A DNA stretch of 64,000 nt from Bacteroidota bacterium (GTDB taxonomy: Bacteria > Bacteroidota > Bacteroidia > Bacteroidales > FEN-979). Below the pieces are notes generated by a model. The model was not told the origin of the DNA. It ran no database searches and was given only the letters and a program-made list of their open reading frames with translations. Shown here piece by piece: positions 27,592-32,801 of this stretch; position 1 is the stretch's first letter, and every line of letters starts with the position of its first letter. Location: assembly GCA_026391355.1 (NCBI GenBank), contig JAPLDH010000077.1, positions 186,001-250,000 on the forward strand. The letters are read 5' to 3'. Position numbers and translations under genes: made by a program.

Positions 27592-28017
27592 ATGAAAACA
27601 AAGATCATAATATCCTTCGCAGCCCTGGTACTCAATATAAGTGTCATTTTTGCAAGTAATAATTATTTGCTGTCGTCACACAGACCAGTTGAACTCAAAC
27701 CGAATTCCGATGCAATGTATATAATACCATCTACACCAAAAGAGGCAACTTTTGAAGATGGAATGTTAGTTTACAAAAATGCAGAGAATGGAACCCTTTT
27801 AGCATCCGGTTTATCAAACGGAAATGCAGAAGGTCCTATCATGGATGCAGCATTTGACTATACTGTTTTTGCACCGGTGACACCTAAAGAAGCATCCTTT
27901 GAGGATGCAAGAAATGACGAAGAAGTTATCATCACTCCTGCCCTTCTGAAAAACCTGGCACCTGTTACTCCCAGGGAGGCATATTTCAGTGATAATTCAA
28001 TTTGTTCCGGAAAATAA
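27592..28017 (+). CDS. Small secreted protein with three xPxTPKEAxFED motifs
   Basis: Signal peptide MKTKIIISFAALVLNISVIFAS; IIPSTPKEATFED, FAPVTPKEASFED, LAPVTPREAYFSD. Confidence 0.8.
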   Translation: MKTKIIISFAALVLNISVIFASNNYLLSSHRPVELKPNSDAMYIIPSTPKEATFEDGMLVYKNAENGTLLASGLSNGNAEGPIMDAAFDYTVFAPVTPKEASFEDARNDEEVIITPALLKNLAPVTPREAYFSDNSICSGK

Positions 28018-28199
28018 ATCCAACGGATAAAATATTATTTTTTCCACCGCTCAAGACGCGGGATATTGCTGACAATACATTAAAATTCATTTATCTACTC
28101 CATACAATATCCAACAGAGAAAAGGAAATTAGCAGTCATGAACCCCATGATACTGATTGTCCGGGCGATCAGAATTCTGGGTTGTCTTAAAAACAAAAA

Positions 28200-29519
28200 T
28201 CAGCGCTTGATAATTTTGATGACTTCTGCCCTTTTTTCTGAAATTATCCTTACAAAATAAATCCCGCTCTTGAGGTTGCTCACATCAAGCTGTGTGGAGG
28301 TTGCTGAGAGGGTTTGCCTGACGACCTCCTGACCTTGGATGTTGAATAAGGAAATAACTCCTTTGGAAATTTCCCCTGGTATTTCGACCGAAATTTTATC
28401 TGTTACCGGATTCGGAAAAATACAAAATCCATTATCCCCGGGGGTCACCCTAACTGATAACAATGTGCAGGAATCCATTACCTGGTGGATGCTGTTGCAA
28501 CCGGAGGCATTGTTTTCAATTGTGGTCGATGACCAGGGTCCCGGAAGGAATCCGCAGATACTGTTCACAGCACATTTTGATAAGGAAGCGTTTCCTATAA
28601 GATATACCTCATGGATCGCGTTGCTGTTGATATTATCGAGTCCCGACAAACTAGCAAGATGATCGTTGTCATAAATGTCGATAAAACCACCGATGATATT
28701 CCAGTTGATGACGGTAAGGTTTTGCAGGGCGGAAATATCTGCCAGGGCAGGATTATAAGTGATCGAAAGATACCCCCCGATACTGCCCAGACCATTGAGA
28801 CCATTCAGGCTGACCAGGCTTGTATCGGAGTCTATCCACAAGGTCCCATGGATGGAGGTCAGGTTGCCCAGTCCGGTAAAGCTGGTCAGCGAATGATTCC
28901 CTTTGATGTTGACATCCCCTCCGATAGATGTAAGATGATCCAGCCCCTGCAGGTCAGGTAAGGCAGGATTATTGGTCAGATAGAAGTTTGAACCTGTTGA
29001 AGTAACACCATTCAGCCCGCAAATACAATTCAATACGGGATTGTCACGGATCACCAGGCCTTGCCCCAGGGTAGTCAGGTTACTCAGTGCCGATAAATTA
29101 TGCAGGGCATCTTCGTATTCGACCAGAAGGGAACCTCCGATATGGGTCAGGTTCACCAGGGCAGAAATGTCATTCAGGGAATGATTGGCGCCGTCGGAAT
29201 AGAGTCCGAGAGTCAGGTCACCACCAACGGAGGTAAGGTAATTCAGCCCTGACAGATTTGTCAGAATGTTATTACCTTTGATGGTCAGGCTTCCCCCGAT
29301 GGAGGTCACCTGCAACAGACCCAGCAGGTTGACAATGTGGTTACCTCCGCTAATCGTGATACTTCCCTGGGGCTGGGTACAACCCGGATACGCTACAGGA
29401 AAATTATCGACCTGTGACTGGTTAGTAAATGTAATGTCCCCTATCGGGCAGTTTTGCGCCAACAGCCCGGATGATAACCATATTGAACTCATAATGAGCA
29501 TGTAAGAAAATTTTTCCAT
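28200..29519 (-). CDS. Secreted leucine-rich / receptor-L-domain-like repeat protein with type A T9SS sorting domain
   Basis: Repeats LTSIGGDVNIKGNHSLTSFTGLGNLTSI...; C-term FCIFPNPVTDKISVEIPGEI...LKSGIYFVRIISEKRAEVIKIIKR. Confidence 0.88.
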   Translation of the reverse strand: MEKFSYMLIMSSIWLSSGLLAQNCPIGDITFTNQSQVDNFPVAYPGCTQPQGSITISGGNHIVNLLGLLQVTSIGGSLTIKGNNILTNLSGLNYLTSVGGDLTLGLYSDGANHSLNDISALVNLTHIGGSLLVEYEDALHNLSALSNLTTLGQGLVIRDNPVLNCICGLNGVTSTGSNFYLTNNPALPDLQGLDHLTSIGGDVNIKGNHSLTSFTGLGNLTSIHGTLWIDSDTSLVSLNGLNGLGSIGGYLSITYNPALADISALQNLTVINWNIIGGFIDIYDNDHLASLSGLDNINSNAIHEVYLIGNASLSKCAVNSICGFLPGPWSSTTIENNASGCNSIHQVMDSCTLLSVRVTPGDNGFCIFPNPVTDKISVEIPGEISKGVISLFNIQGQEVVRQTLSATSTQLDVSNLKSGIYFVRIISEKRAEVIKIIKR

Positions 29520-29561
29520 AACATATCCTCTTTTTAGGTGCATTAGGAATTTTGTCGAACC

Positions 29562-31646
29562 TTAGATTTTAATGAATTTCCCGATTTTTACCGTTTTGTT
29601 GCCGGTTACTTTAACTATGTAAATGCCTTTCGGAAGGTTACTGATATCGATGCTTGCTGAAGGCTGGTTTGTGTTTTGTGTCCGGAGTTCCCTTCCATTC
29701 AGATCAAGTATGGAAACCCGGGCTTTAGAAAATGATTCAGGGGTTTCAACGTGAATAGTAAGATCAGCGGGGTTGGGGTAGACGGTCAGATCACCCGGGT
29801 TCACGGGGTTATTCTCAACCCCAACAGGAAAACCGCCGCCATTTATGGTTTTTAATATTGTACCCCATTCTCCAGCAACATAACCTGTATGATTTTCATT
29901 AAAATAAATCGAAGTTAAATTATGGTCTGTCCCGGAATTCTGATTGACCCATGTTATCCCGCCATCAGTCGTCTCCTTGATCAGGTTATCACCAATAACA
30001 TATCCGTGGATACTGCTTGTGAAAAAAACAGAGACAAACGATTCATCAAGTGGCAAACTATACAGTGGTCCAAATCCTACCCCTCCGTTGGTAGTTTTAA
30101 AGATTGTACCAAAGGAACCAACAATGTACCCGGTACCTGGATCCGGGAAATGAATTGAAAGCAATGGGTTAGAGGTTCCCGACACCAGACTCTCCCAATC
30201 TGCTCCTCCACTTGTTGTTCGCAGAATTGTTCCATATTCTCCGACAACAAAGCCGGTATTCATGTCTGTAAAAAAGACAGAAAATAAGGTATTTGTCGTT
30301 CCGGATTCAAGGGTCGCCCAAGTAGCCCCCCCATTGGTTGTCTTAATTATCAAACCGTGATAACCAACAACATATCCTGTGTTTGAATCCGTAAAATAAA
30401 CTGAATTGAATGCCCCTACGACACCTGTAGGCTGAATTGTCCAGAGATCACCACCATTCATTGTTTTAATAATTACCTGGCTATCGTCCCAATAATTTCC
30501 TCCGACAGCATAGCCGGTATTGGCATTGGGGAAAAAAACCGACTTTAATGTTATTGCTGTTCCGGAATTTTGAGTTGCCCACATGGATCCGCCATCCTGC
30601 GTCTTTACTATCGTTCCCAGGTCACCAACTATATATCCGATATCCTCATTTGTAAAACAAATGGAATTAAATCCAACCGTTTTAATACCCAGTGAATAAC
30701 TTGTCCAGGTTGTTCCCCCGGTATTGGTTTTCACGATTTCGCCAATATCTCCGACCGAATATCCTGTTGTAGCATCGGTAAAACAGACACCGAATAAATT
30801 AAACAGGCTCGCCGGAGGTTGAATTATCCAGTTAGTACCGCCATTTGTCGTTTTCATATTCTGACCGGCCCATCCCACGGCATAACCTGTATTTATGTCA
30901 ATAAAATCAATAGAATAAAGTTCAACGGAAGTACCTGAAGCCTGAATAGTCCAGTTTATTCCGCCATTTATGGTTTTTAATATTGTACCATGGTACCCCG
31001 CGGCAAACCCTGTATTCACGTCGGGAAAGCATACTGAATATAAATGGTTTGTCGTTGTGGAATTTTGGACGGTCCAGGTTGCCCCTCCATTGGTGGTTTT
31101 GATAATGGTTCCATTTTCCCCGGCGAAATAGGCGGTATGACCGTCGGTACAAGCCACCGAAAACAGAGCGGTATTTCCAACCCCGGAGATGAGACTGACC
31201 CAGGAGTATCCCCCGTTCTCCGTTTTCAGAATTATTCCCGAATAACCTACGGCAAATCCTGTATCCGCATCCGCAAAAGAAACGGAGGTCAAGCATTGCG
31301 TTGTCCCTGATGGAACGGAATTCCAGGTATCTCCGGCATCCGTGGTTTTTAGGATGGTTCCTTCACTGCCAACCGCATAACCAGTATTGTCTCCGGTAAA
31401 GGAAATGGAGAATAAAGAATTTGTCGTTCCTGAGGGTTTAAATGCCCAGGATGCTCCCCCGTTCGTGGTTTTCAGAAGATTTCCATAATCACCCACACAA
31501 TAACCTGTGGTTGAACCGGTAAAACAAATAGATCGAATGGGATTACCGGTGGGTGAAGGATTTGACCATTCCCATCCCTGTGCATTCGCACAATGCAACC
31601 AAAGCATTAACAATAATAGGGGAAAGATCTTTTTCATATCCTTCAA
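29562..31646 (-). CDS. Secreted Ycf48-like beta-propeller repeat protein with type A T9SS sorting domain
   Basis: Repeats FTDxNTGYAVGxxGTILKTTNGGxTW; C-term LTVYPNPADLTIHVETPESF...LPKGIYIVKVTGNKTVKIGKFIKI. Confidence 0.9.
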   Translation of the reverse strand: MKDMKKIFPLLLLMLWLHCANAQGWEWSNPSPTGNPIRSICFTGSTTGYCVGDYGNLLKTTNGGASWAFKPSGTTNSLFSISFTGDNTGYAVGSEGTILKTTDAGDTWNSVPSGTTQCLTSVSFADADTGFAVGYSGIILKTENGGYSWVSLISGVGNTALFSVACTDGHTAYFAGENGTIIKTTNGGATWTVQNSTTTNHLYSVCFPDVNTGFAAGYHGTILKTINGGINWTIQASGTSVELYSIDFIDINTGYAVGWAGQNMKTTNGGTNWIIQPPASLFNLFGVCFTDATTGYSVGDIGEIVKTNTGGTTWTSYSLGIKTVGFNSICFTNEDIGYIVGDLGTIVKTQDGGSMWATQNSGTAITLKSVFFPNANTGYAVGGNYWDDSQVIIKTMNGGDLWTIQPTGVVGAFNSVYFTDSNTGYVVGYHGLIIKTTNGGATWATLESGTTNTLFSVFFTDMNTGFVVGEYGTILRTTSGGADWESLVSGTSNPLLSIHFPDPGTGYIVGSFGTIFKTTNGGVGFGPLYSLPLDESFVSVFFTSSIHGYVIGDNLIKETTDGGITWVNQNSGTDHNLTSIYFNENHTGYVAGEWGTILKTINGGGFPVGVENNPVNPGDLTVYPNPADLTIHVETPESFSKARVSILDLNGRELRTQNTNQPSASIDISNLPKGIYIVKVTGNKTVKIGKFIKI

Positions 31647-31822
31647 CTATATCTGATGCCGTAAAAGGTATAATTATTTCCGAAATATACGAAAATTCTA
31701 AGAAAACTGTATATCAGAAAAATTGCCGGATGATTATATCGCGAAATGGCTGAAAAGTAAGAAAGCAAAACAGTGAAATGATTTCGCCGCTTTGCTTTCT
31801 TGCTTTTTCACTTTTTGTCCTG

Positions 31823-31895
31823 AGCCTCTCAGGGGACTTGAACCCCCGACCTGCTAATTACGAATCAGCTGCTCTACCAACTGAGCTAAAGAGGC
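31823..31895 (-). tRNA. tRNA-Thr (anticodon CGT)
   Basis: Cloverleaf GCCTCTT-TA-GCTC-AGTTGGTA-GAGC-A-GCTGA-TTCGTAA-TTAGC-AGGTC-GGGGG-TTCAAGT-CCCCT-GAGAGGC-T; CCA not encoded. Confidence 0.95.
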
Positions 31896-31898
31896 AAA

Positions 31899-31951
31899 GC
31901 CCCCTCCCCCGACCCCTCCCCCCAAGGGGGAAGGGGTTCAAGGGTGGGGGC
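31899..31951. repeat. Nested C/G-rich hairpin repeat between two tRNA genes
   Basis: Outer GCCCCCTCCC/GGGTGGGGGC (one mismatch), inner ACCCCTCCCCC/GGGGGAAGGGGT. Confidence 0.7.
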
Positions 31952-31953
31952 AG

Positions 31954-32027
31954 TCGGGATGAGAAGACTCGAACTTCCGACCCCCACGTCCCGAACGTGG
32001 TGCGCTAGCCAACTGCGCTACATCCCG
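31954..32027 (-). tRNA. tRNA-Pro (anticodon CGG)
   Basis: Cloverleaf CGGGATG-TA-GCGC-AGTTGGCTA-GCGC-A-CCACG-TTCGGGA-CGTGG-GGGTC-GGAAG-TTCGAGT-CTTCT-CATCCCG-A. Confidence 0.95.
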
Positions 32028-32201
32028 AAATTTTTTTATCAGGGTTGCGAAATTACAACTTTTTTTAAACAGGTTCTATGGCGAAGAATCTTTTTTAGGA
32101 TGTCGGGGATTAGTTAATTTACGATTGGACGATTGAGTGTTAAAATGTTGTAACTATTCACCCTCTTACAGAAATAATTAATCAATTGAATTTTAATATT
32201 T

Positions 32202-32314
32202 TAACCACAATGGACACGAAGAATGGTCTATGGGCACAAAGGGTAAGTCACCCGTTATTATACTGAGGAACAACGCTTTGTGCTCTTTGTGATTTTTCGT
32301 TGTGCTCTTTGCAG
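32202..32314. repeat. Imperfect inverted repeat built from CACAAAG/CACAA-type words
   Basis: Left ACCACAATGGACACGAAGAATGG...GGCACAAAG; right CTTTGTGCTCTTTGTGATTTTTCGTTGTGCTCTTTGCAGT. Confidence 0.5.
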
Positions 32315-32398
32315 TAAATTTATTTATTTGTTAATCAATGCATTATATAGTGTGAGTTGTTACAAAATGTTAAATAAAGGTTAATAGTGACAGGTTTC

Positions 32399-32429
32399 TG
32401 TAACTTTTGGTAAAAAGGACGTCCTATGG
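32399..32429 (+). promoter_or_regulatory. Putative ECF-sigma-type promoter upstream of the second TPKEA protein
   Basis: TGTAACTTTT...CGTCCTATGG with a 15-nt spacer; matches 27509-27540. Confidence 0.55.
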
Positions 32430-32456
32430 TCATAAACAATAAATTACATTAAAAAC

Positions 32457-32801
32457 ATGATCACAATGAAAACAACAATTTTAATTCTGGGTTTGATGTT
32501 ACTTCTGGGTGGAAAAATTGTTTTTGCAGGAACCTGCAGTGATACTCCGGGCATTTCAACTTCAGCGCCAGAAATCAATATGAAATCAGTTGCACCGGTA
32601 ACACCAAAGGAAGCTACTTTTCTGGAGGCTGTCGAAACTTCCAACATAACTTATTTGTCAATATTTTTACGTCCCCTGACACCAAAAACAGCAACTTTTG
32701 AAGATGATCTGTCGAATGACCCGGAAATGGAGAAAATTTTAAAAGAAACCGCACCCGTGACTCCGGCAACTGCAGATTTCCCTGATAACGAAAAGAATTA
32801 G
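32457..32801 (+). CDS. Small secreted protein with three xAPVTPKEATFED-like motifs; paralogue of 27592-28017
   Basis: Signal peptide MKTTILILGLMLLLGGKIVFAG; VAPVTPKEATFLE, LRPLTPKTATFED, TAPVTPATADFPD. Confidence 0.8.
   Translation: MITMKTTILILGLMLLLGGKIVFAGTCSDTPGISTSAPEINMKSVAPVTPKEATFLEAVETSNITYLSIFLRPLTPKTATFEDDLSNDPEMEKILKETAPVTPATADFPDNEKN

Follow-up and report, generated by a model that had tools for sequence, protein, structure and literature searches.

The window analysed here, a stretch of 64,000 nucleotides from a Bacteroidota genome, contains two genes for small proteins, referred to below as members 1 and 2, whose positions and associated elements are given in Table 1. Both open reading frames lie where the original prediction had placed them, their lengths and translations are identical to those described there, and each protein does carry three copies of a 13-residue motif behind an N-terminus that resembles a Sec signal peptide.

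Table 1. Features of the two window genes and of their upstream regions
Feature	Start	End	Strand	Basis
Element TTTAGTCTAAAT, then housekeeping-type box TATCTTTG, upstream of member 1	27432	27457	+	pattern search
Candidate ECF-sigma-type promoter of member 1, TGTAACTTTTCAATTTCAGCTTCGTCTTATG	27509	27539	+	strict matches in relatives all upstream of members
Member 1 (P0001, 141 aa)	27592	28017	+	ORF translation; signal-peptide-like start, three motifs
Member 1 motif copy IIPSTPKEATFED	27721	27759	+	translation
Member 1 motif copy FAPVTPKEASFED	27868	27906	+	translation
Member 1 motif copy LAPVTPREAYFSD	27955	27993	+	translation
Candidate ECF-sigma-type promoter of member 2, TGTAACTTTTGGTAAAAAGGACGTCCTATG	32399	32428	+	pattern match
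Member 2 (P0002, 114 aa)	32457	32801	+	ORF translation; signal-peptide-like start, three motifs
Member 2 motif copy VAPVTPKEATFLE	32589	32627	+	translation
Member 2 motif copy LRPLTPKTATFED	32667	32705	+	translation
Member 2 motif copy TAPVTPATADFPD	32748	32786	+	translation

When the genome was searched with member 1 as query, family members were the sole matches. A third paralogue of 123 residues is found elsewhere (G000:C69:22643-23011); it contains four motif copies (LAPVTPKEATFED, LAPVTPTEAFFED, LVPVTPFEADFND and LAPVIPIAADFDE) and matches member 2 at 1.2e-8. The family had been presented as having two members, a count that must be raised: the window genome has three such genes in total, and related genomes possessing the family give 1 to 9 matches each. 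Altogether, 69 distinct members were read from loci of the window genome and related genomes, with 2 to 6 motif copies in each, and these together with the four-copy third gene exclude chance as the origin of the motif repetition.

Neither window protein gave anything above cut-off against Pfam or NCBIfam. Fifteen members compared with Pfam produced scattered single weak matches and nothing more, the PHROGs collection returned one weak match (E 0.0086) to a family whose function is unknown, and a sequence search of the PDB found no match up to E 1. Plasmid and phage searches gave no family match, and the literature, searched for the motif strings and by topic, yielded no match and nothing relevant, respectively. 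The two findings that would have undone the original prediction, a match to a characterised family or a lack of multi-motif homologues in other genomes, are thus both contradicted, such homologues being present in many genomes. The window pair therefore belongs, with good support, to a real and hitherto undescribed family of small exported acidic proteins.

All 69 members begin with a signal-peptide-like segment, as judged by a simple rule (basic start, hydrophobic core and A-x-A-like end) and not by SignalP. Their median length is 122 residues, and the mature part is strongly acidic, with a median pI of 4.05 and 97% of values below 4.5. Two motifs are found in 6 proteins, three in 27, four in 33, five in 2 and six in 1, mostly spaced by 22-26 residues from start to start. 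The consensus is LAPVTPxEADFED, in which P2, P5, A8 and F10 are nearly invariant. Over 241 sites we counted L0 85%, A1 78%, P2 100%, V3 56%, T4 68%, P5 100%, any residue at position 6, E7 79%, A8 99%, D9 56% or T9 27%, F10 97%, E11 51%, and D12 72% or E12 21%; the values for P2, P5, E7, A8 and F10 are somewhat inflated because the pattern used to find the sites contained P2 and P5 and partly constrained the other three. An independent alignment of 15 whole proteins nevertheless has the P, P, A and F columns invariant or nearly so.

The first and last copies differ in character, T9 occurring in 45 of the 69 first copies and D9 in 53 of the 69 last ones, and the repeats must therefore be old. 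In 24 of the 69 proteins the chain ends at a motif (...DFE or equivalent). The motif had been proposed to be the most conserved part of these proteins, and the codons agree: among closer relatives (53 pairs), motif codons have a dN/dS of 0.17 and linkers one of 0.30, values that are descriptive because the pairs overlap in ancestry. Motif codons are thus under stronger purifying selection than linkers. No residue exceeds 26% at positions 13-15 after the motif start or at -4 to -1 before it in the 69 members, so that no conserved cleavage site was seen there. One protein of unusual build was also observed, a two-motif member fused to a C-terminal domain (FMFSNNGKLIVNEVTAPSKRLEEYVKKTL...; locus L064, G008:C33, ORF from 1413). 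By eye this domain resembles a small stand-alone exported protein at locus L136, which has an ECF-like upstream site; neither the fusion nor the L136 protein has a Pfam match above cut-off.

The family has a sharp taxonomic boundary. Among 98 genomes searched, comprising the window genome and its relatives, 41 gave matches, all of them in the taxonomic family of the window, where 41 of 43 genomes carry members; the 55 genomes representing the order's other families were all negative. A profile built from 15 members was positive in 5 of 393 genomes of an order-wide sample, all five again in this taxonomic family, and in 1 of 396 genomes of a phylum-wide sample, namely the window's own. The P0003 single-protein scan found members in a Lac Pavin MAG (JAPLDI01) and in an uncultured Bacteroidales bin (CAIWTA01). 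In the genomes sampled, the family is confined to one family of Bacteroidales.

Member 1 comes after metH, metF and a PcrB-type synthase gene, and members hold the same place in other genera. Because of this shared position and the lack of any plasmid or phage match, member 1 looks vertically inherited, and an origin in a mobile element or phage was rejected on the same grounds. Member 2 has two tRNA genes on one side and a DUF4337 open reading frame on the other; in the sister species, the second member does not occupy this place. In some genera a DPP-IV-type peptidase gene sits between the PcrB-type synthase gene and the member. An ECF-class member has such a gene (DPPIV_N plus Peptidase_S9) at a distance of about 0.3-1.5 kb at loci L083, L084, L085, L086, L090 and L091, which represent several genera; a gene of this type adjoins neither window gene. 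Elsewhere, in one genus, a LytTR-type response regulator and a histidine kinase, identified by eye, are found a few kb from members (L080, L088, L089 and L090); at several kb, the LytTR regulator was considered too remote to be given weight. A conserved functional operon was likewise discarded, since synteny alone accounts for the recurring neighbours; apart from synteny, no pocket protein is found repeatedly near members. Between the two window genes (28200-31646) lie two type IX secretion cargo proteins, one with a Receptor L domain and one with YCF48-like repeats. These neighbouring proteins match the C-terminal sorting domains Por_Secre_tail or CHU_C in Pfam, whereas the two family proteins of the window do not, and the latter were accordingly dismissed as type IX cargo.

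The regulation of the family is a new point of this analysis: members are preceded by dedicated promoter elements, a conclusion that we consider well supported. They carry one of two types, an ECF-sigma type (class A) or an element with three half-sites (class B). The former has the form TGTAAC-N15/16-CGTCTTATG. Both window genes are preceded by TGTAACTTTT-N-CGTC(T/C)TATGG, in which a GTAAC -35 box and a CGTC -10 box stand 15-17 bp apart in the upstream region, which places them in class A. In the window genome this TGTAACTTTT-type form occurs upstream of the two window genes only, which proves little alone because the pattern was derived from those two genes. The relatives provide an independent test: across 14 genomes, the strict pattern GTAACN{14,17}CGTCTTATG had 13 matches, each of which precedes the start of a family member by 12-52 bp and has the same strand as that member.

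A looser search, allowing two mismatches, located sites upstream of genes for MacB-type ABC ATPases, TolC-like proteins and a PspC protein, all names that, like the beta-barrel assignment below, were read from the sequence by eye. The MacB-type site of the window genome is accompanied by FtsX-like and HlyD-like genes, and in two genera a site precedes a gene for a beta-barrel protein whose neighbour is the same in both. At loci L179, L178 and L181, ECF-like sites of the form TGTAAC/CGTCTTA stand in front of a MacAB-type operon and also, in two genera, in front of a beta-barrel protein gene beside a LepA/EF-G-like gene (by eye). Since reversed-pattern controls at two mismatches gave 0 to 3 matches per genome, a single looser match is suggestive, and it is recurrence in orthologues that carries weight. 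The sites at MacAB and OMP genes have for the most part CGTCTTATT or CGTCTTAAT as their end, not CGTCTTATG, and may therefore belong to another sigma factor. In Flavobacterium, a conserved CGT box at -10 has been ascribed to ECF sigma factors by transcription-start mapping (PMC9723704). On the basis of the consensus and of the genes sharing it, we infer that the CGTC element functions as an ECF promoter; no gene for the sigma factor itself was found. The presence of looser sites in front of genes for MacAB/TolC efflux, OMPs and PspC suggests that the family is under envelope-stress control.

In class B members the start region is a TAnnTTTGCTTCATCAA one, accompanied by three half-sites (ACCGA, TCGG and CGA) near -80, -58 and -36 relative to the TTTG box; the element lies 112 bp ahead of the start codon. 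In 22 genomes, all 16 strict matches to this operator pattern are found about 112 bp upstream of members, and the reversed control gave no match. With one mismatch, 17 of 20 matches are upstream of members by their coordinates; the remaining three have no promoter-like context. Both types of cis-element are hence exclusive to the family in the strict searches, and almost absent elsewhere in those genomes. Member 1 has in addition the TTTAGTCTAAAT-TATCTTTG pattern, whose sole occurrence in the window genome is before this gene. A similar sequence precedes several other members, and the element looks like an operator, possibly a metal-responsive one.

Two AlphaFold2 predictions, from one sequence and from six, gave no fold beyond the signal helix. 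Mean pLDDT was 34.8 and 56.6, respectively; both alignments are shallow and, because the inputs were one sequence and six rows, these values are weak evidence for disorder. The mature chain is probably unstructured. The three-residue periodicity of P2, P5 and A8 would suit a polyproline-II-like docking peptide. Alternatively, the V-T-P-x-E-A core could belong to a small fold and serve there as an ordinary helix N-cap, although T4/E7 covariation is absent (p 0.38).

We propose, with a probability of roughly 0.45, that the window proteins are members of a lineage-restricted exported family and act as stress-induced, unstructured, multivalent docking proteins of the periplasm or the cell surface. 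Envelope stress would lead an ECF sigma factor to switch on members 1 and 2, and the second promoter class would be switched on by a dedicated activator. Once exported by Sec, the mature acidic chain would display three to four near-identical docking motifs every 22-26 residues. If every L-A-P-V-T-P-x-E-A-D-F-E-D motif fitted one and the same pocket in a partner of the envelope, one chain would bind several copies of that partner, and under stress could work as a multivalent scaffold or tether, or as a chaperone-like buffer. Scaffolds of this general kind, unstructured chains with several short linear docking motifs, are known. The likeness lies in the probably unstructured chain and the several near-identical candidate docking motifs; the family differs in that no described motif was found to be related in sequence to its own, whose docking is conjectural. 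A more far-reaching reading, which we think unlikely, would give one Bacteroidales family a private system for envelope stress or signalling, in which two dedicated transcription inputs control the exported multi-motif proteins and PxxPxxAxF is a new docking or signal peptide for an envelope receptor or protease.

The acidity of the mature chains, and the resemblance of the ECF-type promoter to that of efflux and PspC genes, would also fit an acidic buffer or decoy which binds cations or cationic antimicrobial peptides, or solubilises misfolded envelope proteins, without a specific partner. We regard this as rather improbable, given that a generic acidic role does not call for near-invariant P, P, A and F residues in a fixed register. 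More doubtful still is a structural or adhesive repeat protein, whose motif would mediate assembly on itself or on a surface layer or matrix. The regular spacing and the several paralogues per genome are what one would expect of it; the very short chains, the lack of a type IX sorting domain, the fact that no cell-wall or lipid anchor was seen and the stress-type promoter are not.

Yeast alpha-factor is a multi-copy secreted peptide precursor, and the family resembles it in that tandem, near-identical short units come after a signal peptide. The exported chain could thus be cut into motif peptides or linkers acting as signals or antimicrobials, an idea to which the DPP-IV-type X-Pro peptidase gene near members in several genera and the similar promoter of MacAB/TolC-like genes lend some credit. 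Unlike alpha-factor type precursors, however, the family has no conserved processing site between motifs and its linkers are constrained, not hypervariable; this constraint on the linkers also argues against the motif being a mere cleavage tag around free cargo. With no DPP-IV gene adjoining the window genes, we hold a precursor role to be quite unlikely.

As for the regulation of the proposed docking proteins, a parallel can be drawn with the ECF sigma regulons of Bacteroidota. The SM6 promoters of Flavobacterium psychrophilum and PorXY-SigP of Porphyromonas gingivalis resemble the present case in the CGT(C) -10 box and in having targets among genes for the envelope and for export (PMC9723704; PMC4800418). 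The present case differs in that no T9SS component is found among the small set of sites examined here and that the CGTCTTATG form marks this family alone in the strict search.

Small exported repeat proteins under stress regulation have general precedents as a kind; for the family itself, no relatives were found in the databases searched. The family is well bounded, with a precise motif, a clean taxonomic limit and exclusive promoter elements, so that the sigma factor or activator and the partner of the motif are open to direct experiment. It also illustrates that taxon-restricted orphan proteins can carry their own dedicated regulatory signals.
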